DNA of 64,000 nt from an uncultured Clostridium sp. (GTDB taxonomy: Bacteria > Bacillota > Clostridia > TANB77 > CAG-508). The stretch lies in NCBI GenBank assembly GCA_946495655.1, contig CAMMDS010000004.1, forward strand, positions 1 through 64,000, read 5' to 3'. Positions 17,044 to 52,688 of the stretch are shown here, piece after piece. A model generated the notes under the pieces. That model searched no databases. It saw only the letters and a program-made list of their open reading frames with translations, and was not told the DNA's origin. A program made the position numbers and the translations under genes. Position 1 is the first letter of the stretch. The number at the start of each line of letters is the position of its first letter.

Positions 17044-17677
17044 ATGGCTGATGGTTTTAATATTGATAGTTTTATTTATAATTTTTCTTGCAAGTGTAGC
17101 AAATTACAGAAAAAAACTTTCTCCAAGAATCAGTTGATTACTAGCTATATTCAAAAACGTAATCAACTTTGTATTCTTGTTGACCGGCAAAGCAGATTTA
17201 GTTAGATATGATTTAAATGGTAATAGAACCATCGTTGAACATTTTTCAAAAAATGCATTGTTTGGAGAAGTATTTTATAAAGTAACAACTAATAATGAAT
17301 TACTTGTTGAGGCCAAATCAAATTGCACTGTTCTATTTTATATCTACGATCAATTAAAACAGCCTTGTACTAAAAATTGCGAATTTCATTCCATACTATC
17401 AGAACATTTACCTGAATTAATATTAAATAAAATCACTGATTTAAATACCCGAATAGAGCTTTTAACACAGAGAACAACTAGAGATAAATTATTAATGTAT
17501 TTTTCTCTTATATCTACTAGAAAACTTTCTAAAACATTTGAACTTCCATTATCTTTAACTGATTTGGCTGATTATTTAAATGTAGATAGAAGCGCTATGA
17601 TGAGAGAACTAAAATTGTTGAAAGAAGATAAATTAGTCGATAAAATAGGGAATCGAATTATTCTATTATATGAATAA
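17044..17677 (+). pseudogene. Crp/Fnr-family regulator interrupted by an apparent +1 frameshift
   Basis: Upstream frame MADGFNIDSFIYNFSCKCSKLQKKTFSKNQLITSYIQKRNQLCILVD joins the downstream frame GKADLVRYDLNGNRTIVEHFSKNALFGEVF...LTDLADYLNVDRSAMMREL if one C in GACCGGC (~17183-17188) is removed. Confidence 0.7.
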
Positions 17678-17720: not shown

Positions 17721-18185
17721 TTATATTAAAATTTCTTTCTTCTGCATTTCTTTGTAAATATATCTCACAAGATCTATTTCGTATTCATCATAATTTTCAC
17801 TTAAAGAATTTCCATCCCATTGCCCGTAAAAAGCAGTATTACATAATATTTCCATTCCTCCTTCTGCATACTCTTCTATTACTGGCATCATTTTCTTTAC
17901 GTTCTCATAATCTTCAAATTTATTAAAATCATAATCGAACTCTTTAAACATCATACAAATTATTGCTAACAAATCTTTTTCACTAATATGCTCACTTCTC
18001 ATTTCTGTGGCTCTTTCTTTTACTGGAATTCTTTTATTATTTTTAAATCCTACAATACTTGCAAAAACGAATACTCCTGCTCTATTTTCAAATATTTTCT
18101 TTTTATCCACTAGCATCTCATAAATAGAATCATATTTTTTACTTCTATATACAAAGAAATTAGGTTTTAATACAAAATCTTTCAT
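17721..18185 (-). CDS. Dnd system-associated protein 4-like
   Basis: KKKIFENRAGVFVFASIVGFKNNKRIPVKERATEMRSEHIS...VIEEYAEGGMEIL resembles the DNA phosphorothioation-associated protein 4 pattern (F..+.D...FAA.LG.K...+.P......I+...EEYA.GG.EIL). Confidence 0.55.
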   Translation of the reverse strand: MKDFVLKPNFFVYRSKKYDSIYEMLVDKKKIFENRAGVFVFASIVGFKNNKRIPVKERATEMRSEHISEKDLLAIICMMFKEFDYDFNKFEDYENVKKMMPVIEEYAEGGMEILCNTAFYGQWDGNSLSENYDEYEIDLVRYIYKEMQKKEILI

Positions 18186-18215
18186 GTTTTTCTCCTATCT
18201 ATATAAATATTATAA

Positions 18216-20255
18216 CTAATATATCTGACTAGATATATCTTTGATTTCTACTATTTGCGTTTTTCCTTTATCTTTCTGTTCTAATTTATAGAATTTATGC
18301 CATTTATTTGTTTTATACAAATACTCCATTTCTGTACTAGTCATTTCTGTATCAGTAACTAGCAATATCCATTGCTCCATTTCATTTGGTATAGCATTTA
18401 TAATATGTTTTCTATTTTCCATAGAAATCTTACCTAGAGGCGTGTCCATAAATAGTGGTACATTAATTATTCCATCTTCATTGCAAGCTAATTTTGATAA
18501 AGCAATAATTAATGATAAAGAAATAATGTGTTTTTGTCCTGAAGATATATCTTGTAATATTGAAATATCTTGCCAATTTCTCACATCTATTTCATAATTA
18601 TCATTTACTGTTATTTTTCCTATTAAATCTTTGTCTTTATCTTCGATTAATTCTTTAAAAATTCTATACATTTCATTTGATAATCTTTCTTTTACATCAT
18701 TTATGTAATCTTGTTTTATTTTTTCAAACATTTCGTATAGTTGATTTAAATATTCTTTCTTTTTTTGCTCTACTTTATTTTTTTCTTCTTGTTGTTCAAT
18801 CATTTTTTCTTCTTCTTGATAATTATTTAATTCTTCTTTTTTATTTTCTATAGTATGCTTTTTTATAGCTATATTAAGCTTTAGTTTATCTATTTCATTT
18901 TCTCTTTTTTCGAAATCTTTTTGATATTCTACTAATTCATTTTTTGAAGTATTATTAAATTCTTTAATTTTCTCTCTTACATTCTTTCGGTTTTCTTCTA
19001 GTGTTTCAATATATGATTTTTCATCACTTACTGATTTTAAATCCTTTTTCAGGTTGTTCTCTAAAATATTTTTTCTCCCTATATATTTATCTATTTCCTC
19101 TAACCAACCTGTATAGAATTTCCTACTTTCACTTTTTAAACTGTTTTTATAATTTTTTAATAATTGATAATTGTCTTGATCTTCGTCTATATGTGTTCCA
19201 CATATACATACTTTTTCTTCTAAGATTTTATCGATTAGTAATTCTGGAATATATATTGTTTCATCTCTATCCTTAAGCTTCTTTTTGCTGATTTCAATAT
19301 AGTTGAATATCAAATTATTAGCTAAAGAATTATTTAATAAATCTTTAAATCTTTCTTTATTACTATTTAGTTTGTCTTTTTCTTCTCTAATTTTTTGTTC
19401 TAATTTTTCGTCTTCTTCCCATAAAGATTTTACAGCTTCATTTTCTTTCATTTTTTGTTTTAATTTTTCCAATTGGTTATTGGCACTATCTAGTTCTTCT
19501 GTAAGATTATCCAAATCATTTTTAGCTTCTTCTATCTCTTCTTTAATTTCTTCTTGTTTATTATGATTTTCTCTCCATTTTGTACTAGCACTAGAATATA
19601 TTTTTTTCTTTTGTTCTGACAACATTTTTTCTAAAATAGAAACCGATTTTTCCAAATTATCTATTTGAAGTAATTTAATTATACCTGATTTTATTTCTTT
19701 TCTTGATTTAGAGTTTGTTCTAGCTAAACTTTCAATTTTATCTCCATTAAAAAAGAAAAAATCTTTTAACTTTGGATTTAGAATGTCTTCTAATATTTCT
19801 TCTATTTCTTCTTCATTTGTTTTTGTATTAGGATCCAAGTTACCATATTCGTCTATAATATCCATAGAAACTTTTGAATTACTACATTTAATTATTTCTT
19901 TTACATCTTCTTTCATGAGCTCATACATTTTTCTGACCACAATGTATGTTTTTCCCTCATTTTCAAAAATCACTTTTACAGAAGCTTCTACTTTTTTCCC
20001 TATGTTTTCTTCCAATGCATGGAGATTTACAAGATCTATTCTTTTGCTATCATTATCTTTTTCATCTTCGTCTTCTGCTATTTTTTCTAACCCATAAAGA
20101 CAAAACATCATTGCTCTAAATATTCCTGTTTTTCCGCAACCATTTTGTCCCAAAATAACTGTTATATCAGATCCATCACTATTTGCAAATTCTATTTTAT
20201 TATTTTCTCCATAATATTGTCTAAAATTATTTAATTCTATTGATATTAATTTCAT
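18216..20255 (-). CDS. DndD-like SMC/Rad50-type AAA ATPase
   Basis: N-terminal NFRQYYGENN and Walker A ILGQNGCGKTGIFRAM; long coiled coil; central CICG half of a zinc hook; C-terminal signature SSGQKHIISLSLIIAL and Walker B VPLFMDTPLGKIS. Confidence 0.8.
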   Translation of the reverse strand: MKLISIELNNFRQYYGENNKIEFANSDGSDITVILGQNGCGKTGIFRAMMFCLYGLEKIAEDEDEKDNDSKRIDLVNLHALEENIGKKVEASVKVIFENEGKTYIVVRKMYELMKEDVKEIIKCSNSKVSMDIIDEYGNLDPNTKTNEEEIEEILEDILNPKLKDFFFFNGDKIESLARTNSKSRKEIKSGIIKLLQIDNLEKSVSILEKMLSEQKKKIYSSASTKWRENHNKQEEIKEEIEEAKNDLDNLTEELDSANNQLEKLKQKMKENEAVKSLWEEDEKLEQKIREEKDKLNSNKERFKDLLNNSLANNLIFNYIEISKKKLKDRDETIYIPELLIDKILEEKVCICGTHIDEDQDNYQLLKNYKNSLKSESRKFYTGWLEEIDKYIGRKNILENNLKKDLKSVSDEKSYIETLEENRKNVREKIKEFNNTSKNELVEYQKDFEKRENEIDKLKLNIAIKKHTIENKKEELNNYQEEEKMIEQQEEKNKVEQKKKEYLNQLYEMFEKIKQDYINDVKERLSNEMYRIFKELIEDKDKDLIGKITVNDNYEIDVRNWQDISILQDISSGQKHIISLSLIIALSKLACNEDGIINVPLFMDTPLGKISMENRKHIINAIPNEMEQWILLVTDTEMTSTEMEYLYKTNKWHKFYKLEQKDKGKTQIVEIKDISSQIY

Positions 20256-20258
20256 ATT

Positions 20259-20420
20259 TTATTCCTCTCTTACTAAATTATTAATTTCCCTCTCTATATT
20301 ACTTTTTATATTTTCTTCGCTTTTACCTTCGGATACTAATTCTAATGTTTTTATAGCTATGTTTTTTAGTTTTGGATCAATTTCATAATTTATTACTTTT
20401 TCTTTTAAATTAATATTCAT
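20259..20420 (-). CDS. 53-aa small protein between helicase and DndD-like genes
   Basis: Hand translation MNINLKEKVINYEIDPKLKNIAIKTLELVSEGKSEENIKSNIEREINNLVREE*; start overlaps the helicase 3' end, stop abuts the DndD-like start. Confidence 0.6.
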   Translation of the reverse strand: MNINLKEKVINYEIDPKLKNIAIKTLELVSEGKSEENIKSNIEREINNLVREE

Positions 20421-22506
20421 CTGTCTCATTTCCTTCACCTTCCTCTCTCATCTCTTGATAAACTTCCCATGGTAATTTATTCATATTTGGTTCTAAATTG
20501 TATTTTGAAACCATATCATATATTTCATCTCTAGCTCTATTTTTATTTTCAGCATTTTGGGCAAATTCTGCAAATCTTGGTAATTCTTTTTTTATTATAT
20601 TCTTTTCAACACTTCTATTTTTACATTCTTCATATGGAAATACAATAAAATCATACAATTCAGCATATTTTTTATAATCAGATGTTCTTAGTATTCTTCC
20701 TCTTCTTTGTATAAATTCTCTTGGATTTGATGTGCTGGACAAAAAGTAAGCTGTTTTGATGCTTGGTATATCTACGCCTTCATCTAGGCATTTAATTGCA
20801 ACTAAAATTTGATATTCTCCAGCTGAAAATTTTTGTAATATTTTCTTTCTATCTTCTATATCAACATCATAAACAAATTCATGTACTTTAAATCCCATAT
20901 CGCTAAGATGTTTTGTAACATCTTTACTTTCTCCTTGTGCAACATATACAAGTGTATGTGATATTGTCTCTGTTTGCATTTTTTCTTTTAATAATTTATA
21001 TAAAGTTACATACTTACTTCTACAAGTGTTCATTATTCTTCTTCGTTTTCTATATATTTTTTTAATATAATCATCATCTTCTTCATCACTGTTTCTTTTA
21101 TTTAAATAATTTGATATTCTTCTGGTTAATTCTGTATACTCTTCTTGTTCTTCGTAATCTAATCTTGTTACTATAGGATAGTAATAGTATGGAGTTAGTA
21201 AATTGTCCTGTATTGCTTTTTCTAATGTATACTCATATACAGTTTTATTAAAGTATTGTTTTATCTTTTGAGTTCCATCTTCATCAAACCATCTATCTGG
21301 TGTAGCAGATAATCCCAATCTAACCTCAATATTATCTAACATCATATTCTGTCCATTATTAGTTCCCATATTGTGGCATTCATCTGCTATTAAACAAAGA
21401 TTACTTTCTATTTTCTTTATCGCTTCATAAAAATCAGTAGATGTTGAAGTTTTATATGTTGAAACAATACATACATTATCGATAAGATGACTATTATAAT
21501 CTTTTATCCTCGAAATAAGTCTGTTGTACCATTTTTGTTTAGATCCCATACATTTTAGTATAGCTTCATACCCTTGTTCTGCAAGCTCTTCAGTCCATTG
21601 TTCTACCAAATGTGTAAAAGGAACTAATACTATAAGAAATTGTCTACCTTTCTCTTCTTTATATTTTAACATTGCAAATATACTTGTTAATGTTTTTCCC
21701 GTACCTGTAGCCATTTCAAATATGCCTTGCCAATTGTTTTCTTTCAATTTTTGTATAGCTTCTAATTGATATTTTCTTGGTTCTTTTTTCTTCACTGTGC
21801 TATTTCCAAATATATAATTTTTATCAAAATTTTGTGATAGGTCTCTAAATGTACATTTCAGCTTTTCTGGCATATCAATTACAGTATAAAATTCTCTTTG
21901 GCCATTCCACAATTCCATAAATCTTTTTTTATGTTCGTTACAATATTCAAAACCTGTCCCCCAACTTTTAAATACTGATACTCCCTCACCATTAAAATTT
22001 GCTTGTAATGATGCGTTTATTGAGCCATGTATACAAACCATATCTTGATTGTCTTCAAATATTGCTATTTTGTCATGATATATACCTATCCCATTTTTAC
22101 ATACTGCGAATTTCATTTCTAATATTTCTTCAGCAATAAGCCAAGACAAGAAATTCAGTAATTCTTTTTTATCTTTTGCATCAAATTTTTCTAACTCTTG
22201 CTTTATAGAATTATATATTACTTCATCAGTTTTTGCTTTGTTTCCTTTTTTTATTGCTTCATAGTCATCTTCTGTTAAGTTTGGAGAGGTAATCATATAT
22301 ATTTTTCCATTATTTTTAATAATACTTTCTATTCCTTCTAAAGCCACTTGTATCCAATTCGATGAAAAATAACCTATTCCTCTATAGTATTTATTTGACT
22401 CTTGCATTAAAGGAATAAATAAATCTTTTTCGATATTGTCTTTAGAACTATCATATATTAACTTAACTTCTACATCTCTAAGTCCCATTTTCACTCCAAC
22501 TTTCAC
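20410..22506 (-). CDS. PLD-like nuclease domain + DEAD/DEAH (SF2) helicase
   Basis: PLD-type HDKIAIFEDNQDMVCIHGSINAS; helicase EMATGTGKTLTS, DECHNMG, GLSATPDR, FIQRRGRILR. Confidence 0.85.
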   Translation of the reverse strand: MKVGVKMGLRDVEVKLIYDSSKDNIEKDLFIPLMQESNKYYRGIGYFSSNWIQVALEGIESIIKNNGKIYMITSPNLTEDDYEAIKKGNKAKTDEVIYNSIKQELEKFDAKDKKELLNFLSWLIAEEILEMKFAVCKNGIGIYHDKIAIFEDNQDMVCIHGSINASLQANFNGEGVSVFKSWGTGFEYCNEHKKRFMELWNGQREFYTVIDMPEKLKCTFRDLSQNFDKNYIFGNSTVKKKEPRKYQLEAIQKLKENNWQGIFEMATGTGKTLTSIFAMLKYKEEKGRQFLIVLVPFTHLVEQWTEELAEQGYEAILKCMGSKQKWYNRLISRIKDYNSHLIDNVCIVSTYKTSTSTDFYEAIKKIESNLCLIADECHNMGTNNGQNMMLDNIEVRLGLSATPDRWFDEDGTQKIKQYFNKTVYEYTLEKAIQDNLLTPYYYYPIVTRLDYEEQEEYTELTRRISNYLNKRNSDEEDDDYIKKIYRKRRRIMNTCRSKYVTLYKLLKEKMQTETISHTLVYVAQGESKDVTKHLSDMGFKVHEFVYDVDIEDRKKILQKFSAGEYQILVAIKCLDEGVDIPSIKTAYFLSSTSNPREFIQRRGRILRTSDYKKYAELYDFIVFPYEECKNRSVEKNIIKKELPRFAEFAQNAENKNRARDEIYDMVSKYNLEPNMNKLPWEVYQEMREEGEGNETDEY

Positions 22507-25500
22507 AATATTTGTATAATACCATCATTGAATTCTATCCTTGGATCTTCAAGAAAATCTTTCGGTATTTCTTTTTTTATTATATTTTTTCTTATCAGAT
22601 ATTCTTTTATTTTACTTACCCTAATATATTTACATTTCAACTCTTTTTCCATAATATTTAATAACAAATCATTAAAATTTTCTATCTTACTTTCTTTTCT
22701 AACTATGATCGGCATGTAATATCTCCAATCTATTATATCTTTTTCTACTTCTTTGTAATATTTATTTAATACTTTTTTTACAATAGAGTTTAAAGAATAT
22801 TGATTCCATGTAAAATATTTAATTTGTGGTAAATTATTCATTTTTGTTTCTAAATCTTTTAACACTAAATATTCTTTACCTATAATTTGTTCGTCAACAA
22901 ATTTTTTTATTTGATTTGTTTCATTTTCAGATAAATTAACATTTTTCATATTCATATATGTATCTATATCAATTTTAAATAATTCTTTTTGTAACTTTGA
23001 TATTACAGTTGATGCTGTGCCTGCTTTAAAATTCATTTCTTGTGTAAATTCTACAATATCATTTCTTTCTATATATTTAAAGTCTTTGAAATAATCATTT
23101 ATTACATAATCCAATTCAAATTTGTTATCATCAATTGTTTTATCTAAAATAAAATTATTTTTAAAATTATATTGTGATTCTAATTTTATTTTTAAAAGAT
23201 TATATAATGATTCAACATCATTTATTTTGTTTTCTATTAAATCCAATTCTATTTCTTTGTATATAGTATAAACAGGTACATATTTTCTTTTTTTCATTTC
23301 TTTTTCTATTGCTTCTGTAATAATAGATTTCATTTCATCTGTGAATCTAATTAGATCAATATGATTAATTTTTTTATGTTTATCCCAATATATTAATTTT
23401 TCAGAAATTGCAATAACGTTACTTAATCTATCTTCATTTAAATCAAATTTATATTTTATTTCATCTACTATAACCGCTTCTCCTTTATTTAATATATATT
23501 CTTCTATTTTTTCAGGTTTAGTTAAATTATTATAATCATTGCTTAATTTTGAAATATTTAATCTTCTAAATGAAAATTCATCATCATATAAATATCTTAA
23601 TATTCCATATAAAAATATTTCGTTATTTATTGAAGTTTTTTCTAATAAATCTTTTTTGAACATATTAAATATAGTATGTGGAGAAACATTTTCTTTTGTT
23701 TTTAAGATTTTTATTAATTCTTTTCTTATTTGATTAATTAAATGTTTATCTACTTTTACATTGTCGAAATGTATATATTTGTTATTATCGCATATAATTA
23801 TATTTCTTTCTCTTGATAAAGATGATTTTATTGCATGTGCTTCTTGACTATATTCTATTTCATTTCCAAATATTTCTCTTATTTTTTCTTTTAATTTTTC
23901 TATTCCATCATCATCTAATTTTATTCCATCTTTAAAATAATTTTTTACTATATACTGAAACAAAAATGTATTACTATTTTTTTTACAATAAATGTTATTA
24001 ATTACATGGTAACCTCTTCTTTCTAAATAACTTTCAAAATATTCTATTGGTAAATAATCTATCTGTTCTTCTTCTAAAACATTTTCAATTTTATCGATTT
24101 CTTCATAGTAGTAAAAAACATCTCCTAGTTCCTTTACAATATTATCATATATATTTTGTATGTTTTTTGAATTTGATTTTGTAAAAATGTTTAAATCTTG
24201 TATGTACTGAATATCTTTTATGTTACTATTTATAAGAAGATATTTTATTACTTTTACATCATTTAAAGGATATATTTTTTCTAGATCTTCTTGTGTTAAA
24301 AACTGTTTTTCATTAATATAATTTTTTATTATCTTAAATATTGTTTTTATATATTTTTGAAGTTCTGCTTCTACACTATTAATTCTTTGTCTCACTCTTT
24401 CTTTAGTAATTCCCAATTCTTGGCCTATTTTTTCTAATGTATAATTATTGTTTATTCGTTTATATAATAGATTAATAGAACTATTTTTTTCCTTTATGTC
24501 ATCTAAATCTTTATACAAAAATAAAGTTAAATTATCATCTTTGTATTTTAAATCAATTTCATGTATTAATTTAGAAAATTTTTCAATATCAAATTTCTCA
24601 AAAATATCTATAAAATTTATATCTTTTATTGATTGATAATTTTGTTTTAAACAATACACATATATTTCTTCATCAATTTCTTTTATACTTGATAATAAAT
24701 CATCTATTTCATGCTCTCCTATAGAAAAAATTTCATTTGTAAATTCCTTAACCCTACTAATTTCACTGTTTTCATTTATTAATAAAAATAAATTTAAAGT
24801 TTCCAATTGATTAATTTTTGTTATATTTAATCTTTGTAATTTATTATAAATTTTTCCATATTTATTATCGAGAAAAATATTTTCTAAATCGTCTTGTATT
24901 GAATATACATATTTTATTTTATTAACATATTTATAATTTATTAACTCAAGAATTTTCATACAGTCTGCTAAGTTCATTGGAGTAAAATTGTATTTAAAGA
25001 AATTCTTATAATCCCAATTGGTAAAATCTTCAAGTTTCGTTACTTTATTTCTTTCTATTTCTTGTAAAAATATATTTATTGTTTTACTTGATTTTGAGTT
25101 TTGATTAATTACATCTAATAAATTATTACATTTTGTTGTCTCTTCATTATCGATTTTAAGATTTAATAGATATTCTACGTCTTCCAATGTCATTTTATTA
25201 TTCATAACTAATTTAATAAAATCAGTATGTTTTAATTTTATTACATGTTTTATTTTTTTTGAATTACAATATTCTTTAAATTTGTAACTTAGATCTAATT
25301 TATTAATTTCTTCTGCTCCATTAAAACAAAAGTTATTATTACATGTTAAATCAATTTCATTTGTTTTTAACAATTTTATAAATTTTCCAATCCTTGTAAT
25401 ACCTACTCCTTTTATTAAAAGCAGTTCATTCTTATTCAAATTAGATAATTCTCTTTTATTATTTTTTATACCTCTTTCTTTTAAAAACTTAGAAATAAGC

Positions 25501-26039
25501 TTATCTTTTATTTCTATAATATCTTCATCTTCTATTGAATTTTCTTCATCATATTTTTCTTCATTCTGGCAAAGAATCTGAAAGCCACATCTTTCAAGGT
25601 GGTTTGCAAGTAAATCCAAATCTATATTTGAATTAAAATATTGAAATCCTTCTAGAGGGATATAATTAAAAAATAGATCAGAATCAATTTTAAATTTTTC
25701 TGTAAATTTGCCTAATAAAAACATTCCAAAATTGATCTTTTTATATTTTTCAGTATTTTTATTAGTATAAATATATCTATAGTTATTTTTATCAATACTA
25801 AATCTAGGCAAAATAGATTGCGGAGTGTTAGTTATAAATGTAAAACCTCTTAATACCAATTCATCAATAAATTTAAGTATAAAATCATAATCTTTATTTG
25901 CTACATTCCTTATATCATCAATAGTTATATTATCCAAATTTTCTATATGATTATATTCCTTAAATTTATTAATATAATAACTATTATTAAATTCATATTT
26001 TTCTGGTACATGTGGTAGTTTATATATTCCTTCGTCCAT
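22503..26039 (-). CDS. Large (1178 aa) protein with HhH-like and sigma-70 region-4-like HTH segments
   Basis: HhH-like NELLLIKGVGITRIGKFIKLL; sigma r4-like YTLEKIGQELGITKERVRQRINSVEAELQ; 4-bp overlap with the helicase gene. Confidence 0.6.
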   Translation of the reverse strand: MDEGIYKLPHVPEKYEFNNSYYINKFKEYNHIENLDNITIDDIRNVANKDYDFILKFIDELVLRGFTFITNTPQSILPRFSIDKNNYRYIYTNKNTEKYKKINFGMFLLGKFTEKFKIDSDLFFNYIPLEGFQYFNSNIDLDLLANHLERCGFQILCQNEEKYDEENSIEDEDIIEIKDKLISKFLKERGIKNNKRELSNLNKNELLLIKGVGITRIGKFIKLLKTNEIDLTCNNNFCFNGAEEINKLDLSYKFKEYCNSKKIKHVIKLKHTDFIKLVMNNKMTLEDVEYLLNLKIDNEETTKCNNLLDVINQNSKSSKTINIFLQEIERNKVTKLEDFTNWDYKNFFKYNFTPMNLADCMKILELINYKYVNKIKYVYSIQDDLENIFLDNKYGKIYNKLQRLNITKINQLETLNLFLLINENSEISRVKEFTNEIFSIGEHEIDDLLSSIKEIDEEIYVYCLKQNYQSIKDINFIDIFEKFDIEKFSKLIHEIDLKYKDDNLTLFLYKDLDDIKEKNSSINLLYKRINNNYTLEKIGQELGITKERVRQRINSVEAELQKYIKTIFKIIKNYINEKQFLTQEDLEKIYPLNDVKVIKYLLINSNIKDIQYIQDLNIFTKSNSKNIQNIYDNIVKELGDVFYYYEEIDKIENVLEEEQIDYLPIEYFESYLERRGYHVINNIYCKKNSNTFLFQYIVKNYFKDGIKLDDDGIEKLKEKIREIFGNEIEYSQEAHAIKSSLSRERNIIICDNNKYIHFDNVKVDKHLINQIRKELIKILKTKENVSPHTIFNMFKKDLLEKTSINNEIFLYGILRYLYDDEFSFRRLNISKLSNDYNNLTKPEKIEEYILNKGEAVIVDEIKYKFDLNEDRLSNVIAISEKLIYWDKHKKINHIDLIRFTDEMKSIITEAIEKEMKKRKYVPVYTIYKEIELDLIENKINDVESLYNLLKIKLESQYNFKNNFILDKTIDDNKFELDYVINDYFKDFKYIERNDIVEFTQEMNFKAGTASTVISKLQKELFKIDIDTYMNMKNVNLSENETNQIKKFVDEQIIGKEYLVLKDLETKMNNLPQIKYFTWNQYSLNSIVKKVLNKYYKEVEKDIIDWRYYMPIIVRKESKIENFNDLLLNIMEKELKCKYIRVSKIKEYLIRKNIIKKEIPKDFLEDPRIEFNDGIIQIL

Positions 26040-26085
26040 ATTTTTACCTTCTTATTTTATTACACATTTACTTTTGGATATTATA

Positions 26086-26691
26086 TCATATATTTGCTTG
26101 TTTATCTATATTATTCCATCTTTTATTTACTATATTCCAATTGATTATATTCCAAAAAGCATTTATATAGTCTGCTCTATTTGTTTTATATTGTAAATAA
26201 TATGAGTGTTCCCACATATCTAAAACAAGAAGTGGTACACAGCCCCATAATGTTAAATTTTGATGTTTCTCACATTGTAATATTTCTAATTTTTTAAATG
26301 CAGGTACCCATACAAGCAAATTCCATCCTGAGGCTTCAACAACTTTACTACTCTCTGTGAATTGCATTTTAAATTTATCAAAACTACTAAAATCAATATT
26401 AATTTGCTTCATCAAATCAACTCTTGGACTTGTGGGTATCGCAGGTCCCATACTAGTAAAAAACAACTCATGTAATATTGCTCCAGATCCCAAAAAGCTT
26501 AAATCTTTTTCCAAGCATTTTATGTTTTTAAAATCATTTGTATCTCTTGCTTGTTTTAGTTTTTCTTCTGTTTTATTAGTATTATCAACATAACCAGAAT
26601 AAAGAATATCATAATGAAGTACTAAAGTTTCTTTATTGTAATATGGTTCTAAAGCATCTACTGGATAAGGTAAATCAATTTTGTTTATCAT
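26086..26691 (-). CDS. Fe/Mn-type superoxide dismutase homologue (divergent)
   Basis: YPVDALEPYYNKETLVLHYD, LHELFF, LDMWEHSYYLQYK: predicted metal ligands His/His/Asp/His retained. Confidence 0.75.
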   Translation of the reverse strand: MINKIDLPYPVDALEPYYNKETLVLHYDILYSGYVDNTNKTEEKLKQARDTNDFKNIKCLEKDLSFLGSGAILHELFFTSMGPAIPTSPRVDLMKQINIDFSSFDKFKMQFTESSKVVEASGWNLLVWVPAFKKLEILQCEKHQNLTLWGCVPLLVLDMWEHSYYLQYKTNRADYINAFWNIINWNIVNKRWNNIDKQANI

Positions 26692-30696: not shown

Positions 30697-31890
30697 TTAA
30701 GACCTTGTTGGTAATAGTAAGTTTTCTAGTGCATATCCAGCTTTTCTATTATGAGAAAGTAGTGGATGTACATAAAAGTCAAGTGTTGTACTTATTTGTG
30801 CATGACCTAGTCTTGCAGAAACAACAGCTATATCAACATTTTGTGCAACTAGTAAACTTGCATTTGTATGTCTTAATCCGTGAAAATTAATTACAGGTAA
30901 TCCTATTGTACCTACATATTTAACAAACCATTTGCTTATAGAAGAAGGATGCATAGGTTTGCCATCAGCTTGTACAAATAACCTATCAGAATTCGTCCAT
31001 AATTCGCCATATAGCGATTTTTGATCTTCATACCATAACTTATATTCCTCAAGCAAAGAAATGATAAATTCGGGTATTGCAATCTCTCTAATGGAGCTTT
31101 CTGTTTTAGGAACTTTTGTAAATACTCCCATATCTGATAGATACTGACTAGAACGGTTAATACTTATAATTCCATTTCTAAAATCAACATCTTGCCATTC
31201 TAATCCCATTAATTCACCTAAACGAACACCAGTAAAGATAGTAAGAATGATAGCAACTTTATATTTAGTATCTTCTACAGAAAGTTTTTCTAAATTTTCT
31301 AATAATATTTTAGTTTGCTCATCATCATAAGATCTTCTTTTAGGCTTTTTAGCTCTAGGTGGTTGAACACGTTCAGCAGGATTACTTACAATTAATTGCC
31401 AGTAAACAGCTCTATGAAGCATTGCTCTTAATAGTCTGTGATGTTCTAAAATGGTTTTACCAGATAAAGGCTTTTTAGTTTTTGTGCCATTGTTACCTTT
31501 TTTTCTAACTAATTGAGTATCTTTTTCAAGTAAGTCATAGAATTTCATAATGTCAGTTGGTCTGATTTTGTTTATATAAAAATGTCCAAAGTATGGTAGA
31601 ATTCTTGTTTCTAACATTCTACAATATCGTTTGTATGTAGTTGGAGCTAATTCTTTTGAACCATAATCTCTTTTCCATACATCAACAAATTCAGAAAATT
31701 TAAGAGATTTACCATCTATGACTAAACCATTTTGTACTTCAGTAACAAATTTTGCTAATTCAACTTCAGCTTCTTTTTTAGTTCCGTGAATAGTTTTTCT
31801 GTGTATCATTGGTTTTCCGTTTAAGTCAAATCCTTCTGATACTGTTAACCTGTAACTATTTTTTCCTCTTTTTTCTATACTCCCAGCCAT
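30697..31890 (-). CDS. int: Tyrosine recombinase/integrase
   Basis: N-terminal arm-binding domain, catalytic pattern TGVRLGELMGLEW...HGLRHTNASLLV...LGHAQISTTLDFYVH. Confidence 0.93.
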   Translation of the reverse strand: MAGSIEKRGKNSYRLTVSEGFDLNGKPMIHRKTIHGTKKEAEVELAKFVTEVQNGLVIDGKSLKFSEFVDVWKRDYGSKELAPTTYKRYCRMLETRILPYFGHFYINKIRPTDIMKFYDLLEKDTQLVRKKGNNGTKTKKPLSGKTILEHHRLLRAMLHRAVYWQLIVSNPAERVQPPRAKKPKRRSYDDEQTKILLENLEKLSVEDTKYKVAIILTIFTGVRLGELMGLEWQDVDFRNGIISINRSSQYLSDMGVFTKVPKTESSIREIAIPEFIISLLEEYKLWYEDQKSLYGELWTNSDRLFVQADGKPMHPSSISKWFVKYVGTIGLPVINFHGLRHTNASLLVAQNVDIAVVSARLGHAQISTTLDFYVHPLLSHNRKAGYALENLLLPTRS

Positions 31891-32171
31891 TACTTATTTC
31901 ACCTCCTTTCAAGTATAACTATGGAAGGGAGAGTATTTATGTGTATTATATAGTATTTTTTGATAAATTACCAGCTATTTTTGTTTATTTTTAGATACTT
32001 TCAAAGATTACAATAAAATTCATAAAAGAAAATATAAAAACATAAAAATACTGGATGAAATGTAATACGATTTGATTTACAAAATTTTACAATAGATGCA
32101 ATATTTTACTAAATCCTTGAGAAAAATGGAAAATTTTGATATAATTCATAAAAAATAAAGGAGAACTTAAA

Positions 32172-34772
32172 ATGGATATTTTTAAAAATGGAGTGAGATT
32201 TGTAAGATTTGATTGTCATTTACATACAAAATCAGATAAAGAATTTAAGTATGATGATGAAGAAAATAAATTTTTAGAAAGATATATAAATAAACTAAAA
32301 GAAAAAGAAATAAATGTGGGAATTATCACTAATCATAATAAATTTAATTATAATGAATTTAAAAATTTGAAGAAAAAAGCCATAAAAGATGAAATTTTCT
32401 TAATACCAGGGGTGGAATTATCAGTTAAAGAGGGAAGTAATGGATTACATGTTTTAATCGCTTTCTCAGAAGAGTGGATTAGTAATGGAAACGATAAAAT
32501 AAACGCTTTTTTAGATTCTGCTTTTATTAATGTAACAGAAAATAGAGAAAATGAAAATACAAGGTGTGATTATGATTTATTTCATTTAATAGAAGCGTTA
32601 AATAGAACTCAGAAAGATTATTTTATTATTTTTGCTCATGTGGATCAAAAATCAGGGATTTTTTATGAATGTGATGGAGGAATGATTTCTACATTATTTA
32701 ATAAAAACATTTTAAGAGAAAAGACCTATGGATTACAAAAATCATATAATAATGATAACTATCAGAATTTTGTAAATTGGACAAATATGAGGTTACCTAG
32801 AATAGAGGGCTCAGATCCAAAATGTATAGATGATATAGGAAAAGGAAATAAAAAAACATATATAAAAATAGGAGATTATTCATTTAATACAATAAAAAAT
32901 GCATTGACAGATTTTGAAAACAGAGTTTCTGATAAAGCTGAAAATACTGAAAAACATGGATACATTGAATCGCTTAATATTGAAGGAGGAAAATTTAATG
33001 AGAAAAAGTTTTACTTTTCAAAAGAATTAAATAATATAATAGGTATACGAGGAAGTGGAAAATCAGCTGTATTAGAAATTACTAGAGACATTTTAGGATT
33101 AAAATCAGATATAGATAAAAATTACAAAGATAATTTGGTTAAATATTATGTGGATTCTGGATGTAAGGCAACTTTAAATATTGTAGATAGATATAATAGA
33201 AAATATAAAATTATTAAATATTTTTCTGATAATAAAACATATATTGAGAACGATAATGGAGATATTGAAAATATATCAGTAGATGCTTTAATAAAAAACC
33301 CGTTATATTTTGGACAAAAAGATTTATCCATGAGAACGGATAATTTTGAAATGAAGTTACTAGAAAAATTAGTAGGTTATAAGGATGTACTTTATACAGA
33401 AGATTTTAATAATATAAATAATCAAATAAAAGAAGATTTCGCTATATTAATTAATCTGTTGGAAATTCCTGATAAAATAGCAGAACAAACAATAGAAAAA
33501 AATAATATCAATACTCAATTAAAAGTATTTAAGGAAAAGGGAATAAATGAAAAATTAGGAAAGATTCAAAATTTTAATGAAGATACATTAGAGATAGAGA
33601 ATACTATTCAAAAGTTAAATACGTTAATTAATGATATGAATAATTCAACAGAGATAACTGTAAATGATATAGAAGAGTTAAAAAAATATGAATCAAAATA
33701 TAATTCAGAGATTTTTGAAGAAATTAATAATGCTATAAATAGAATAATTATGCAGATGCAATCATTTGAAAAAATTAAAGAAAATATAAACAAGGAGATT
33801 ACTTTATTAAAACAAATACAGGGAAAATTCATAAACAAAAAGGATGGATTTATTGATGAATTTGAAAAAATAAAAAGAGAAATTAATCAAGACTTGAATC
33901 CAGATACATATTTAAAATTAAACCAAGATAAGGTAAAGCTAGAAACATCAATTAAAAATTATAAAGATAAATTAGAAAATATAAATACGACAAAAGCAAG
34001 ATTAACTAATAATTTGAAAAAAAGAAGAGAACTTATAATGAGAGTTAATTCAATTTATAAAGAAAGAATACAAAAAATAAATGAAAGCCAAGATAATATA
34101 AAAATTACATTTGTTGCTAATGGAAATAAAGAGAAGTTTATTGATGATATGAAGAATCTAGTAAAAGGCAGTGGAATAAGAGGAGATGTTATAAGTAAAT
34201 TAAACAATTTTTCAGATTATATAGGCATTATGGAGGATATTTATTTAAATGATTCTAAAATTTTAAAAACATTAATTAAAGATTCAGATATAGAAAAAAT
34301 AAATAGTATAATGAAAGGAAAATTAGATATAGTCTGTGAATATGTGTCAGAGAATTATGTTGAAATAAAATATCACGATAAACCATTAAAAAACCATTCT
34401 CTAGGACAAAGAGCCTCTGCTATTATTTTGTTCATTATTGAACAAAAAGAAAACGATTTAATAATTATAGATCAGCCTGAAGATGATTTAGATAATCAAG
34501 TGATTTATAAGGAATTAATAACTACAATAAGAAAAAGGAAAAAAGACATACAATTTATTTCCTCAACTCATAATGCAAATATTCCAGTATTAGGAGATGC
34601 CGAACAAATAATTTGTCTGAAAGATGATGGAAGCAATATTAATATAAATAATAATAGCATAGATAATAGTAGTATTCAAAATGATATAGTACAGATAATG
34701 GAAGGTGGTCCAGAAGCTTTTAAAAGAAGACAACAAATTTATAAAGAATGGAAAATAAATAGTAGCATATAA
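32172..34772 (+). CDS. PHP-domain + AAA/SMC-like ATPase (TrlF/Ppl-like)
   Basis: PHP motifs FDCHLHTKSD, GVELSV, FAHVDQ; Walker A GIRGSGKSA; signature LGQRASAIIL; Walker B DLIIIDQPEDDLDN. Confidence 0.82.
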   Translation: MDIFKNGVRFVRFDCHLHTKSDKEFKYDDEENKFLERYINKLKEKEINVGIITNHNKFNYNEFKNLKKKAIKDEIFLIPGVELSVKEGSNGLHVLIAFSEEWISNGNDKINAFLDSAFINVTENRENENTRCDYDLFHLIEALNRTQKDYFIIFAHVDQKSGIFYECDGGMISTLFNKNILREKTYGLQKSYNNDNYQNFVNWTNMRLPRIEGSDPKCIDDIGKGNKKTYIKIGDYSFNTIKNALTDFENRVSDKAENTEKHGYIESLNIEGGKFNEKKFYFSKELNNIIGIRGSGKSAVLEITRDILGLKSDIDKNYKDNLVKYYVDSGCKATLNIVDRYNRKYKIIKYFSDNKTYIENDNGDIENISVDALIKNPLYFGQKDLSMRTDNFEMKLLEKLVGYKDVLYTEDFNNINNQIKEDFAILINLLEIPDKIAEQTIEKNNINTQLKVFKEKGINEKLGKIQNFNEDTLEIENTIQKLNTLINDMNNSTEITVNDIEELKKYESKYNSEIFEEINNAINRIIMQMQSFEKIKENINKEITLLKQIQGKFINKKDGFIDEFEKIKREINQDLNPDTYLKLNQDKVKLETSIKNYKDKLENINTTKARLTNNLKKRRELIMRVNSIYKERIQKINESQDNIKITFVANGNKEKFIDDMKNLVKGSGIRGDVISKLNNFSDYIGIMEDIYLNDSKILKTLIKDSDIEKINSIMKGKLDIVCEYVSENYVEIKYHDKPLKNHSLGQRASAIILFIIEQKENDLIIIDQPEDDLDNQVIYKELITTIRKRKKDIQFISSTHNANIPVLGDAEQIICLKDDGSNININNNSIDNSSIQNDIVQIMEGGPEAFKRRQQIYKEWKINSSI

Positions 34773-34788
34773 ATGTTACTATTTATTT
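34755..34788. terminator. Bidirectional terminator between convergent genes
   Basis: AAATAGTAGCATATAAATGTTACTATTTATTTTTTT. Confidence 0.55.
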
Positions 34789-35864
34789 TTTTCCATCCAT
34801 TCAAGCAATTCATCTTCTGAAATTATATTACTATTAAATTCTTTAATTTTTTCTTTAGCAAGTTTCTTCCAATTATTAAAAGCTATTTTAACTTGTTCAT
34901 CATTAGATCTTTTAACTTGCATTAATCTTCTTTGATAATTATTTCTATAAAATTTAATTCCTTCTATAGTATTTCTTTTTTTAGAATAAGAATTGTTAGC
35001 ACCAATCTTTTTACAAGTTACTTCATCTTTACAATATACAATATCACAATATTTTTCGTTATTTTTAAGTGGAATAAAATATTTACCACAGTTTTTACAA
35101 CTTTTAATTTTTATATTCTTATTAGTGGCTATTTCAAATAAGAAAATATACAATATATTAGATAAGTATAAAGTGTGAAAAACAGGACTATTACCTAAAC
35201 TTATTATTCCATTTTCTAGATGTTCTCTAACAATTTTAGGTGTTATAGATTGTGAAGCTATATGGTATATATCATGTGCAAATTGCTGGTAATAATATAC
35301 TTCTATGTTTGTAGAATATTTAAATAAATTATTAAATATAGAATAAGCAAGATATTTTTCTAAAGGACTATAATTTTTATCTACTAAATTATTATTTAAA
35401 TTAAACATATAGTCCACACATTGTCTTATTAAATACTGTAATTTTTTTAACTTAGGTTTAACTCTATTAAAAATAGGTTGATAAGTTTTTATAAATTCAT
35501 TGTCTGTTTTATAAAATTTTAATAAAGGAATAGATTTATCAAATTCACTTAAAATAGTAAATCCATAAAAACAGAAAAATGTACGATAAGAGCTTTCAAA
35601 AGATGCAAAATTTGCATTAAGGAATTTTATTAAAAAAGTACCATAACTTTCTTCAAAAGGCTCTAACAATGTGGATGAAGAAAAATAAATTTCTTTATCA
35701 TTATTAGCATTATCCAAAAGTATATTTGGGAATCTATTATTTTTATCATGATTAAAAGTAGTTTTATACAAAGAAATAGAAGTTGTATAAAACTCTTTTC
35801 TTTTTTCTCTATTAAACCAAAAGTTAAAACAATTTTTTACTGGAATATTATCTTCTCTTAACAT
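34779..35864 (-). CDS. Hypothetical protein with C-terminal zinc-binding cluster (DUF6076-like, tentative)
   Basis: KSCKNCGKYFIPLKNNEKYCDIVYCKDEVTCKK treble-clef-like Cys cluster. Confidence 0.5.
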   Translation of the reverse strand: MLREDNIPVKNCFNFWFNREKRKEFYTTSISLYKTTFNHDKNNRFPNILLDNANNDKEIYFSSSTLLEPFEESYGTFLIKFLNANFASFESSYRTFFCFYGFTILSEFDKSIPLLKFYKTDNEFIKTYQPIFNRVKPKLKKLQYLIRQCVDYMFNLNNNLVDKNYSPLEKYLAYSIFNNLFKYSTNIEVYYYQQFAHDIYHIASQSITPKIVREHLENGIISLGNSPVFHTLYLSNILYIFLFEIATNKNIKIKSCKNCGKYFIPLKNNEKYCDIVYCKDEVTCKKIGANNSYSKKRNTIEGIKFYRNNYQRRLMQVKRSNDEQVKIAFNNWKKLAKEKIKEFNSNIISEDELLEWMEKNK

Positions 35865-38749: not shown

Positions 38750-41700
38750 ATGAGTAATAATGATTTAACATTTTTTACAAATGAACCTGAAAGAAATTTG
38801 TATGAAAGATTTAACAAGATACTTAACCGAAATACACAATTTTTTGATGTTCTTGTAGGATATTTTAGAGCAAGTGGTTTTTATCTAATGCAGAATGCAT
38901 TAGATAAAGTTGAAAAAACAAGAATATTAATAGGAATTAATACAGATAAACAAATTGTGGATATGTTTGAATCAACGCAAGATGAAATTAAGCAATTAAG
39001 TTTATCTAATAAAGAGTCTATTTCAGAATATAAAAAAGAATTAGAAAAAGAGTTTGAAAAATCAGACGATACGGAAGAAGTTGAAAATGGAGTCAATAAA
39101 TTTGTATCTTTATTAAAAGATGGAAAATTAGAAATAAGAATATATACAAAACAACCTATACATGCCAAAATATATATTATGAGGGACTTTAAGGATAGTC
39201 CTGATTTGGGTAGGGTAATAACTGGTTCTAGTAACTTTTCACAAGCCGGACTTGTTAATAATTTGGAATTTAATGTAGAATTGAAAAATTCGGCGGATGT
39301 TCAATTTGCATTAGAAAAATTTGAAGAATTATGGAAAGAATCGGTTGAAATTAATCAAGAATGTGTTGATACAATAGAAAATAAAACCTGGATAAAATCA
39401 GATATTACGCCATATGAATTATATGTAAAATTTTTGTATGAATATTTCAAAGAAGAGATAAATGATGATTTAATAGATAGTACAAAGAACTCATCAAAAT
39501 TTTATCCAGATGGATTTGTCCCATTACAGTATCAAAGAGATGCAGTAATTCAAGCAAAAAGAATATTGGAAAAGCATAATGGAGTTTTTATTTCTGACGT
39601 TGTAGGCTTGGGAAAAACATATATGTGTGCAATGTTAGCACAAGAATTAGATGGAAGATCTTTATTTTTATGTCCGCCAGTATTAATAGATTATTGGGAT
39701 AGAGTTTTGAGCGATTTCGGAGTTAGAGGCTATAAAGTAGAATCAGAAGGAAAATTGGATAAAATAATTGAAGAAGGTACAGAACAATACAGATATGTTT
39801 TTGTGGATGAATCACATAGATTTAGAAATGCTGAAACAGAACAATATAGGCAACTACATGAAATTTGTGTAGGAAAAAGAGTTATACTTATTTCTGCTAC
39901 ACCTCAAAACAATTATACTACAGATATAGCTAATCAATTGTATTTATTTCAATCAAAAAATAGATCTACAATTGTAAATGCAAGAAACCTAGAGTTATTT
40001 TTTGATACTTTAAGAAAAAAGGTAAGATCTTGTGAAAAAGATAGTGATGAGTATAAAAAAGCTGTTAGAGATGCTTCGGAAGAAATAAGAGATAAAATTT
40101 TAAGAGAGGTAATGATTAGAAGGACAAGAACAGAAATTAAAAAAAATTATGCAGATGATTTAAAGAAACAAGGATTAGAATTCCCAAAAGTTTCAGATCC
40201 TATTAAATTAATTTATGAATTTAGCGAAAATACAGAAGATGTCTTTGAAAAAACCATACAAAAAATAGCAGAGTTAAATTATTCAAGATATAAACCATTG
40301 ACTTATGTTAAAGAACATAAATTAAAATCCAGTGAAAGATCTTTGTTAGTTGGTCAAGCTAATATGGGCGGATTTATGAAAGGAATTTTGGTAAAAAGAT
40401 TAGAAAGTAGTAAGTATGCATTTGAAATGACGCTAGGTAGATTTATAGATTCTTATAATGAGTTTATCAGAATGTATAAAGAAAAAGGTATAGTATGGAT
40501 TAGTAAGAAGTTAAATATTATAGAATTGTTAGATAACGAAGATTTTGAAAAGTTGGATAGAGCTTTGAAAAATGAAGATGTTTTTAAATTTAAAGCAGAG
40601 GATTTTAATAGTAACTTTATTATAGATTTAGAAAAAGATTTAAAAATTCTTCAAAGCTTAAAAGACATATGGAATACAGTTCAAACAGATGATAAATTAG
40701 AATATTTTATAAAAGAATTAAAAAACAATAAGAATTTGAAAAACAACAAATTAATTATATTTACTGAGTCAAAAGAAACAGCTGAATACTTAACTGATAA
40801 TATTCAAAGAAGATTAAATGAAAAAGTATTAATGTTTAATGGAACTATGCCTGACAGTATTAGAAATTCTATAAGGGCAAATTTTGATCCTAATTATAAT
40901 AAAGATAGACAAAGAAATGAATATAGAATATTAATTACAACTGATGTACTTGCTGAAGGAATGAACTTACATAGAAGCAATGTAATAATAAATTATGATT
41001 TACCTTGGAATCCTACCAAGATAATGCAAAGAGTAGGGAGAATTAACAGAGTTGGAACCAAGCATAGTGAAATTTTTGTATATAATTTTTTCCCAACAAG
41101 TAAATCAAATGAGCAAATGTCTTTGGAAGAAAATATAATTAATAAAATGCAGATGTTTCATGATATTTTAGGAGAAGATTCTAAATTCTTAACGGAAGAT
41201 GAAGAAGTATCTACACACGAATTATTTAAAAGAATGACTACTATAAATGAAGAAGATGATGGAGAAGTTGATTCAGAACTTTCTTACCTTAAAATCATTC
41301 GTGATATAAGGGATAAGGATAGAGAATTATTTGATAAAATAAAAAATTATCCCAAAAAAATAAAAATAGGTAGAAAAAAAGAAAATATAAACGGTTTAAT
41401 TACTTTTTTCAGAAAAGGATATTTAAAAAAATTTTATATTGCTAACTCTGATGAGACTAAGGAAATTACGTTTGAACAGGCTATTAAATATATTAAAGCA
41501 ATTAAATCTGAACAAAGTAAAAAAGTAAAGGGTGATTATTATAATTTATTACGATTAAATAAAGCAGCTTTTGAAGAGGCAGAAAAAGAGGAAAATAGTA
41601 GTGAAGTAATTTCTGTAAATAAAAAAGGTACTAGTAATGCAAAAAATATTATAAAAGTATTAAAAGAATGTTTAAAAATGGATTACAAATTTACAGATAT

Positions 41701-41947
41701 GGAGATTGACAATATAAATAAAATTATTAACTTATTAGAAAATGGAGAACTTCCTATAAAAATTGTTAAAGAAGGAAATAAGGCAATAAAGAAAATAAAA
41801 GGCATTAACGATATAGCAAAATTTTATAAAGAATTAGAAATAATGATACCAAAAGTTTATCTTGAACAGGAAACAAAGGTTGAAATAAATAAGAAAAAAG
41901 CTAGTAAAAATGAAAAAGAAATAATATTATCAGAATATATTTTTTAA
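38750..41947 (+). CDS. PLD-like nuclease + SNF2-type helicase
   Basis: PLD-type PIHAKIYIMRDF...GSSNFSQAGL; helicase SDVVGLGKTYMCAML, VDESHRFRN, LISATPQNN, TDVLAEGMNLHRSNVIINYDLPWNPTKIMQRVGRINRVG. Confidence 0.88.
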   Translation: MSNNDLTFFTNEPERNLYERFNKILNRNTQFFDVLVGYFRASGFYLMQNALDKVEKTRILIGINTDKQIVDMFESTQDEIKQLSLSNKESISEYKKELEKEFEKSDDTEEVENGVNKFVSLLKDGKLEIRIYTKQPIHAKIYIMRDFKDSPDLGRVITGSSNFSQAGLVNNLEFNVELKNSADVQFALEKFEELWKESVEINQECVDTIENKTWIKSDITPYELYVKFLYEYFKEEINDDLIDSTKNSSKFYPDGFVPLQYQRDAVIQAKRILEKHNGVFISDVVGLGKTYMCAMLAQELDGRSLFLCPPVLIDYWDRVLSDFGVRGYKVESEGKLDKIIEEGTEQYRYVFVDESHRFRNAETEQYRQLHEICVGKRVILISATPQNNYTTDIANQLYLFQSKNRSTIVNARNLELFFDTLRKKVRSCEKDSDEYKKAVRDASEEIRDKILREVMIRRTRTEIKKNYADDLKKQGLEFPKVSDPIKLIYEFSENTEDVFEKTIQKIAELNYSRYKPLTYVKEHKLKSSERSLLVGQANMGGFMKGILVKRLESSKYAFEMTLGRFIDSYNEFIRMYKEKGIVWISKKLNIIELLDNEDFEKLDRALKNEDVFKFKAEDFNSNFIIDLEKDLKILQSLKDIWNTVQTDDKLEYFIKELKNNKNLKNNKLIIFTESKETAEYLTDNIQRRLNEKVLMFNGTMPDSIRNSIRANFDPNYNKDRQRNEYRILITTDVLAEGMNLHRSNVIINYDLPWNPTKIMQRVGRINRVGTKHSEIFVYNFFPTSKSNEQMSLEENIINKMQMFHDILGEDSKFLTEDEEVSTHELFKRMTTINEEDDGEVDSELSYLKIIRDIRDKDRELFDKIKNYPKKIKIGRKKENINGLITFFRKGYLKKFYIANSDETKEITFEQAIKYIKAIKSEQSKKVKGDYYNLLRLNKAAFEEAEKEENSSEVISVNKKGTSNAKNIIKVLKECLKMDYKFTDMEIDNINKIINLLENGELPIKIVKEGNKAIKKIKGINDIAKFYKELEIMIPKVYLEQETKVEINKKKASKNEKEIILSEYIF

Positions 41948-41962
41948 TGGGGGTAAAATAAA

Positions 41963-44900
41963 ATGGCTATTGCAAGTGATAAAACAAAAGAATATTTGCA
42001 AATGCTTGAAGAAAAATTTAATATAAATAAATTTTATGAATTTATAAAAGATTTATTAAATTTAGAGAATGAGAATATAGTAAATGGAAATTGGCAAAAA
42101 GCAACAAGTGAACAGTATAAAAATTATATTGATACAACACAATTATTTGCAGAATACGAAGATGATAAAAGAAGAAAAATAGGAGTTCTTATTATTAAAT
42201 TGCAAGATAATAAACATCCTGCAAATGCAAGAACTATGCAAAGAAATTATATAGCACATTTATTAGATGCCTATAATTTAGATGCTTCTTTATCAGCAAT
42301 ATATAGTAATGCTGACGATACTTGGAGGCTATCTTTTGTAAGGCAAGAAATCGATTTTAGTGAAGGTAAATTAAAATCAAAATTTACTCCGGCTAAAAGA
42401 TATTCATACCTATTTGGAAAAGATGAGCCAAATCATACAGCAAAAAAACAATTAGTAGATTTTATTGAAAAAAATGATAAAAAATATACTATTGAAGAGA
42501 TAGAAGAAAAATTTAGTGTAGAAAAAGTTACAAAAGATTTTTTTGAAAATTATAAAGAAAATTATTTAAAATTGAAAGAAATTTTGGAAAGTAATGAGGA
42601 ATTTATTAGTGAATCTAAAAGATGTGATTTTACTTCTGAAGAGTTCACAAAAAAATTAATGGGACAAATTGTTTTTATATATTTCTTGCAAAAAAAAGGA
42701 TGGTTAGGAGTAAAACTGGTTCCACAAGTTATAAATGTAAAAGATTTTGAAGACATTTATAAAAATAGTGATGTTATTCAGAAGAAAATATTAGATAAAT
42801 ATTATATAACTTTCAATAATACAAAAAAGATAAAAAAAGAATTATTAGAAAGATATAATGAAAACAAACAAGAAATTGAAAATTTATCAGATATATTTGT
42901 AAATACAAAATTTGACTGTAAGTGGGGAACAGGAGAAAAAAGATTTATTAGAAAAATATTTGAAAACTGTGTGAATAGAAACAAAAACTTCTTTGATAAT
43001 TATTTAGAACCTTTCTTTTACGATGCACTTAATAATAAAAGAAAAAACCAATATTTTAGCCTTTTTAATTGCAAAATACCATTCTTAAATGGAGGATTAT
43101 TTGAACCACTAGATAACTATCAGTGGCAAATTGCAAAGTTTAATATAGATAATGAGATTTTTTCAAATAAAGAAAAAACTGGAATTTTGGATTTCTTTGA
43201 TAGATATAACTTTACTATGGATGAAGAAGAACCATTAGAAAAAGATGTCGCAGTTGATCCAGAGATGTTAGGTAAGATATTTGAAAATTTGTTGGATGTA
43301 AAAGATAGAAAATCTAAAGGAGCATTTTATACTCCTAGAGAAATAGTACATTATATGTGTCAAGAAAGTATTGCTAATTTTTTAGTTAATAAAGTTGGTG
43401 TTGATTATAATGAAATAAAAGAATTTATACAATATGGAGAAATGATAAGAGATGTGGATTTAAAAGAAGCTACTAAAGATTCATATTTAGTAGGAAAAAC
43501 AATATTTAAGAATATTGTAAAAATAGATAATGCACTTGAACATATTAAAATTGCCGATCCAGCAGTAGGTTCAGGAGCTTTTCCTTTAGGAATTTTAAAC
43601 GAAATTGTTAAGTTAAGAGATATATTAACATCATATATGTTGATATATAACAGACTAGGATTATTTGGTAAAAAATATTCAGAAGAACAGATAACTAATT
43701 ATAAAAGAAGTATTTATCAATTAAAGTGGAATACCATAAAAAATAGTATATATGCAGTTGATATTGAAAATAGTGCGATTGATATTACAAAACTTAGATT
43801 ATGGTTATCAATAGTAGTTGATCAAAATGATGATCCTGAGCCATTGCCAAACTTAAATTGCAAAATTATGCAAGGTAATTCATTAATTGATGAATATGCA
43901 GGGATAAAGCTTATTGATAAAAAATTTATAGATGAGCTAAAAGATAGACAAAATGTTACATTTAATAATGGTGGAAAAATTAAAAGTGGAAAGAAAATGA
44001 TTGAAGTTTCTTCAAATCAAATTCAATTTGGGGATGGTCAAAAGAAAGCTCAAATAGATGACCTTATAAACTTAAAACTAGAATTATATGGAGAAAATGA
44101 TCCTGAAAGAAAGAAAATATTACTTGAGAAAATACAAACAGCTAGAAAAGAATTATTGAAACTAAATTTCATAGGAACAAATAAAGAAAAAGAATTATTT
44201 GAAATAGATAAATCACATAATAAACCATATTTTGCTTGGAGATTAGAGTTTATAGAAGTATTTATTGAAAATGATGGTTTTGATATAATAATAGGTAATC
44301 CTCCTTATATTGGACAAAAAGGTCATAAAGAATTATTTGAACAAATGAGTAATAATGAAAATTTTGAAAAAAAGATGGATTACTGGTACTTTTTTTTACA
44401 TAATGCTTATGAGATGACAAATGAGATTGGTATTGTTTCCTATATCACTCCAAATTATTGGATAACAGCACAAGGTGGAAAAAAATTAAGAAACAGAATA
44501 GTGAATGATTTTTCATTTATTAAATATATTAATTTTAATGAAAATAAAATATTTAGTGCTGGAATTCATACAAATGTATTTGTATTAAGTAAAATTATAA
44601 AACAAGATAATGAAGTTAGTGTTTGTATTTTTGATAATAATTATGAAAATGATTTCATTAAGCATATGAGCAATCAAAATAATTTTAAAATTAAACAAGA
44701 CATATTATTAAATAAATGGACTAGATTTGTCAATTTTATAGACACATACAATTTAAATCTTTTAAATAAAATGACTCAAAACTGTGAAAAATTATGTGAT
44801 AATGAAAGTGAGGGAAAATCAAAGAAGGGAGTTATTACAGGGAAAAAGGTAACAAACGGAATTTGTAATCTTAATCAAGGATTAGTAACTGGTAAAGATA

Positions 44901-52672: not shown

Positions 52673-52688
52673 TGAAAGAGAGAAAGAA

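Follow-up and report, generated by a model that had tools for sequence, protein, structure and literature searches.

The systems closest to the locus described here are known from two studies. The DndCDEA-PbeABCD system of haloarchaea (Xiong et al., 2019, PMC6459918) contains the same four-gene pbeABCD cassette, with the same gene order and protein families, and the CxC ABC ATPase-DndE-anchored systems (Rakesh et al., 2024, PMC10853773) share an HKD-SF2 helicase, a small protein and a CxC ABC ATPase, together with a protein reported as a DndE cognate. The latter occur independently in numerous bacteria and were reported also without phosphorothioation (PT) genes (PMC10853773). Solitary Pbe copies had been reported before, with 320 of 553 PbeAC lacking dndCD nearby and 165 lacking any modification gene nearby (PMC6459918). 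The operon analyzed in this study is located at positions 17721-26039 of the window, i.e., of the 64,000-nucleotide stretch of an uncultured Clostridium sp. under investigation. In contrast to the haloarchaeal system, no DndCDEA or other PT genes were detected here, and a gene for a large protein, termed L, precedes pbeA. While the extra genes named in the main text of Rakesh et al. are methylases and MTaX1 and include no sigma-4 protein (PMC10853773), the window operon has L; the sigma-like HTH of that study is an insertion in DndH. The searched main texts on Dnd/Pbe and BREX make no mention of an L-type protein, the novelty of which is provisional. With PbeABCD and solitary Pbe already published, the new part is L as a conserved, apparently undescribed and probable fifth component.

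Composition and surroundings of the operon

The ORF listing confirmed the five close-packed minus-strand genes of the initial annotation, each with an open frame and in the same order as in relatives. The first gene (22503-26039) encodes L, a protein of 1178 aa. The second, pbeA (20410-22488), encodes an HKD (PLD-like) nuclease domain fused to an SF2 helicase, in agreement with the PLD-helicase proposed earlier. Its best PADLOC profile is PbeA (3e-223), NCBIfam TIGR04095 (dnd_restrict_1) matches with 1.2e-138 and 463 bits, under its cut-off of 600, and the motifs HxK...GSxN, TGTGKT (Walker A), DECH and QRRGR (motif VI) are intact. Between pbeA and pbeC lies pbeB (20259-20420), which encodes 53 aa from ATG 20420 within an ORF extending over 20259-20438 and whose homologues in two relatives are 61 and 68 aa long (8e-26 and 2e-18). 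The fourth gene, pbeC (18216-20255, 679 aa), encodes a CxC-type ABC ATPase with intact GQNGCGKT (Walker A), SSGQ (signature) and DTP motifs and the Zn-hook motif CICG (CIC at 350-352); the CxC is found in PbeC of 9/9 L-bearing Bacillota loci. The former label of a DndD-like SMC ATPase was correct insofar as the protein is an ABC ATPase related to DndD. An identity with DndD itself was rejected in favor of the CxC sister PbeC, since the hook is present, the PbeC profile (4.4e-167) is far ahead of the best DndD profile (3.6e-54) and the genome lacks DndC. The last gene, pbeD (17721-18185, 154 aa), is dnd_assoc_4-like as had been stated, matching TIGR04062 with 5.1e-13, though below its cut-off, and a homologue is present in every close relative. 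PbeD has been reported as a DndE cognate (PMC10853773); a profile comparison with three DndE sequences revealed no detectable similarity, and the AlphaFold model of PbeD is too poor for interpretation. Profile searches of the operon's proteins yielded no match to DndF, DndG or DndH. Based on profiles, motifs and, for PbeB, position and homologues, the four genes are assigned to PbeA, PbeB, PbeC and, less firmly, PbeD in the canonical A-B-C-D order, a known kind, and the module to the CxC ABC ATPase-anchored PbeABCD (PMC6459918; PMC10853773). The initial annotation counted an assignment to an already named system as a refutation, and this applies to four of the five genes, which fall to PbeABCD (PADLOC, NCBIfam); its suggestion of a modification-independent defence machine or a sensor of another mark may still hold.

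Concerning the junctions, the reported 11-bp overlap is the one between PbeB (from ATG 20420) and PbeA. An alternative PbeA start, GTG 22506, would give an ORF of 698 aa (20410-22506), but the start kept in relatives is ATG 22488, so that L and PbeA are probably separated by a 14-nt gap rather than overlapping by 4 bp, as previously assumed. The gaps between PbeB and PbeC and between PbeC and PbeD measure 3 nt and 30 nt, respectively. A promoter-like TAGATA-17-TATAAT with extended TG is located 41 nt ahead of the L start (26080-26108, minus strand); this is weak evidence, the frequency of promoter-like matches in the AT-rich region around the L start not being above chance. The identical five-gene set and order was found in two related genomes (G187 and G277), the L proteins of which share 66% and 40% identity with L, and the L-Pbe arrangement also recurs in more distant Bacillota, which indicates that it is not due to chance.

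The operon is flanked downstream by a CRP-family gene on the opposite strand and nrdD, and upstream by superoxide dismutase and TspO. The CRP/FNR-family gene (window 17044-17677) appears to be split, with its N-terminal part in another frame than the rest. The stretch beside the operon is mobile and defence-rich, containing a phage-type integrase, a TrlF/Ppl-like ATPase (466 bits, above cut-off) and a Fic-HTH protein (window 30697-35864 and 47349-48275). Another defence-type pair consists of an HKD-SNF2 helicase (DrmD-like) adjoining an Eco57I/PglX-like methyltransferase (window 38750-45679), and a Tsp45I-type restriction endonuclease lies together with its methyltransferase at window 51872-53795.

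Modification genes in the host genome and at other Pbe loci

The lack of DndC and DndB, noted initially for the stretch around the operon, extends to the whole host assembly (1.55 Mb, 51 contigs, 93% complete), in which neither protein was found. The same applies to PAPS-reductase-family DNA modifiers, as no such protein of this assembly scored over a cut-off that DndC and SspD of related loci, used as positive controls, do pass; the sole weak match was LarE. A C5 methylase was likewise not found in the host genome. The initial annotation had considered that a full dnd/ssp locus at another place in the genome might use these genes; this was rejected on the basis of the DndC, DndB and PAPS-reductase-family searches. 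Since none of these three was found in the assembly, the operon is a solitary Pbe rather than a restriction arm serving some remote dnd locus.

At other loci, PbeABCD adjoins SspABCD-like genes (L056, L057, L114, L117, L118, L119, L121, L122, L124, L125, L126, L130, and L038), namely those for a DUF4007 protein, a PAPS-reductase-like protein, a large ATPase and a desulfurase, the set being incomplete in some loci. Among the Pbe copies that the 2019 count took for solitary, many may in fact be linked to Ssp. Further genes were observed near Pbe. Two adenine-type methyltransferases and a presumed restriction endonuclease with a DpnII-like layout are present in a Clostridia MAG (L006:4977-7567) and on a Lactiplantibacillus plasmid (L036:2611-5185), and a 1729-aa HerA/DUF87 protein lies upstream of a PbeA broken by a stop codon (L060:2130-9791). 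In three genomes, weakly PbeA-like helicase proteins are encoded upstream of L-Pbe (L116:2238-4445, L127:14512-16875, and L080:512-5655), of which L080:3046-5655 was scanned and showed a match to methyl-directed restriction enzymes of type IV.

The L protein and its family

The only Pfam match of L is Sigma70_r4 at residues 525-554 (27.5 bits against a cut-off of 24.1), in line with its earlier description as sigma-r4-like; sigma region 2 was not found by Pfam, and no PADLOC family matched L. Of the L family, the models searched in PADLOC, Pfam and NCBIfam detect only the sigma-4 stretch. Comparisons with the sequences of solved structures gave sigma factors as the strongest matches, all via region 4. 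The best PDB fold match is a tandem winged-helix domain (E 0.009), a weak match and a lead only towards the probable tandem winged helices of L. Relatives of L contain helix-hairpin-helix (HhH) stretches of the alphaCTD type, with three of them in the G504 protein, and the L-family profile shows internal repeats in the C-terminal half. The AlphaFold model of L (mean pLDDT 44.5) is too poor for interpretation. Judged from these domain matches, L carries DNA-binding-type modules and has no recognizable catalytic domain. It was rejected as a true sigma factor, as it lacks the sigma region 2 on which the RpoD-type L120 protein scores too. Close to other Pbe loci, short proteins of sigma-like type (L120, L122, and L129) were not counted as small versions of L, because the one scanned, L120, is of the RpoD type with regions 2 and 4. 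Another large defence-operon protein with sigma region 4 is MzaA (MZA system), but an identity of L with it was rejected; only the sigma-4 stretch matches, scoring 14 bits where the cut-off is 800, and by this test the two are not of the same family.

A direct search with L itself in phages and plasmids yielded no match, and a scan of genome contigs with the L alignment, using patterns derived from the L N-terminus, retrieved only two close relatives. The L-family profile matched the G504 protein with 6e-50 over 694 columns and a Ruegeria protein with 2.5e-9 over 325 columns. Immediately ahead of pbeA, an L homologue is encoded in nine Bacillota loci (window, G187, G277, G504, G792, G1045, G832, G974, and G680) and on two alphaproteobacterial plasmids (Ruegeria and Pontibrevibacter). 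In the nine Bacillota loci and on the Ruegeria plasmid these junctions are direct and on the same strand, with the two genes either overlapping slightly or lying a few nt apart. Within the Bacillota sample, L was present at 6/23 near-full-length PbeA loci; as most Pbe loci lack it, Pbe can work without L. The G504 locus also carries dndB and dndC, and on the Ruegeria plasmid dndBCDE and a desulfurase gene precede L, which implies that L cannot be viewed as a mere substitute for PT.

In a tree of 24 L-family proteins, 9/10 Pbe-linked members form one group with an SH-aLRT of 91, a support that comes from this measure alone and is under 95, with long deep branches whose order is unsure. The subgroups (G832,(G974,G680)) and (G277,(window,G187)) are common to the L and PbeA trees, and both trees set G504 apart. 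Since the two trees agree in this way, L was apparently carried along by a single lineage of Pbe through Bacillota and Alphaproteobacteria, and was recruited separately once. PT genes were found near 1/9 L-bearing and 16/22 L-less loci (Fisher p 0.004; p 0.011 with three close relatives collapsed). This mutual exclusion of L and PT in raw counts was rejected as independent evidence, because it corresponds to 2-3 changes only on the PbeA tree, where the pair test is without power.

The L family is also found in other defence operons. Directly before brxP-brxC-pglZ, an L-family protein is encoded in five Bacillota loci with type-4 BREX (PMC12839542; L076, L077, L081, L083, and L084). Two of these were run through PADLOC, the first giving BrxP (1e-265), BrxC (1.5e-131) and PglZ (8e-59) and the other BrxC and PglZ, while the assignment of the remaining three relied on similarity and on the sizes of the genes; the brxC of L083 is divided between two ORFs. 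All core genes of type-4 BREX differ from those of Pbe, and the window has no BREX genes beside L. Directly after M33C of PDC-M33ABC, a PADLOC candidate system whose core genes all differ as well, an L-family protein is encoded in two loci (L043:3758-10516 and L046:8427-14646); the M33 scan covered all three M33 genes of one locus and M33A of the other. With positions after M33C in PDC-M33 and before brxP in BREX, the L family does not in every case occupy the place expected of a leading regulator. In Aurantiacibacter, a 437-aa protein with sigma-4 and alphaCTD-like domain types follows pbeD. Several L-family members have no recognized defence neighbor, and in several Clostridia members of about 810-920 aa have neighbors that were not recognized with the limited reference set.

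Possible function of L in solitary Pbe systems

L is probably a real fifth Pbe component, acting as a DNA-recognition or assembly subunit. Our main reading, held tentatively at a probability of about 0.45, is that of a five-gene solitary Pbe, anchored by the CxC ABC ATPase, which acts against invaders and in which L supplies or supplements recognition. Following in part what has been proposed for related systems (PMC6459918; PMC10853773), a PbeC dimer together with PbeD might scan or loop DNA, while PbeB would hold the complex inactive. We infer that L could dock with the PbeC-PbeD core and recognize a DNA sequence, a structure or a promoter-like feature, thereby supplying or supplementing target recognition where no sulphur mark exists. 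Upon recognition, PbeA with its helicase and HKD nuclease would translocate and cut the invader or block its replication; alternatively, it may damage the host in a suicide response.

The main rival to this reading is that L regulates transcription of the operon, its sigma-4/alphaCTD-like modules binding a promoter or RNA polymerase and switching Pbe on during infection, with the defence itself being plain PbeABCD. Sigma region 4 and alphaCTD are indeed promoter-recognition modules, and L is the first gene in the Pbe and type-4 BREX operons. Yet L lacks sigma region 2, more than 1000 residues are unusual for a regulator, the L-family gene is the last one in both PDC-M33 operons, and the protein with the same two domain types in Aurantiacibacter comes after pbeD, so that a regulatory role is held to be rather unlikely. 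It is improbable that self is marked by base methylation, with Pbe as the restriction arm of a methyltransferase encoded elsewhere in the genome. Such an arrangement would fit the observation that 155/320 solitary PbeAC are near methyltransferases (PMC6459918), and the host does possess an Eco57I-type enzyme (window 41963-45679), the Tsp45I partner (window 52689-53795) and a ParB-fused N6/N4 methyltransferase (L062:1453-2595, on host contig C1, another contig than that of the operon). None of them adjoins the operon, however: the closest one, about 16 kb from it on the far side of an integrase gene, has a helicase of its own as partner, the Tsp45I partner is matched by an endonuclease of its own, and G187 with the same operon has no methyltransferase gene within its contig. 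The activity published for Haloterrigena is PT-dependent, and inactive solitary copies are listed as one option by the authors (PMC6459918), which would be compatible with a non-functional remnant left after loss of the modification partner. We consider this highly improbable here, as the five frames and all motifs are intact in the window and in two relatives with L proteins only 66% and 40% identical to that of the window, which implies lasting selection.

Beyond the main reading of L as a recognition part of a solitary Pbe, it is conceivable, if rather doubtful, that L is a swappable recognition subunit common to Pbe, type-4 BREX and PDC-M33, and that Pbe tells foreign from self without a DNA mark, e.g., via promoter-like or transcription-associated features of the invading DNA. 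How a solitary Pbe spares its own genome, or whether it is functional, has been an open question since 2019. L, found mostly where sulphur-marking genes are not nearby, is a testable candidate for the missing recognition part, and the presence of L relatives in operons of type-4 BREX and PDC-M33 points to a component common to several multi-gene defences.
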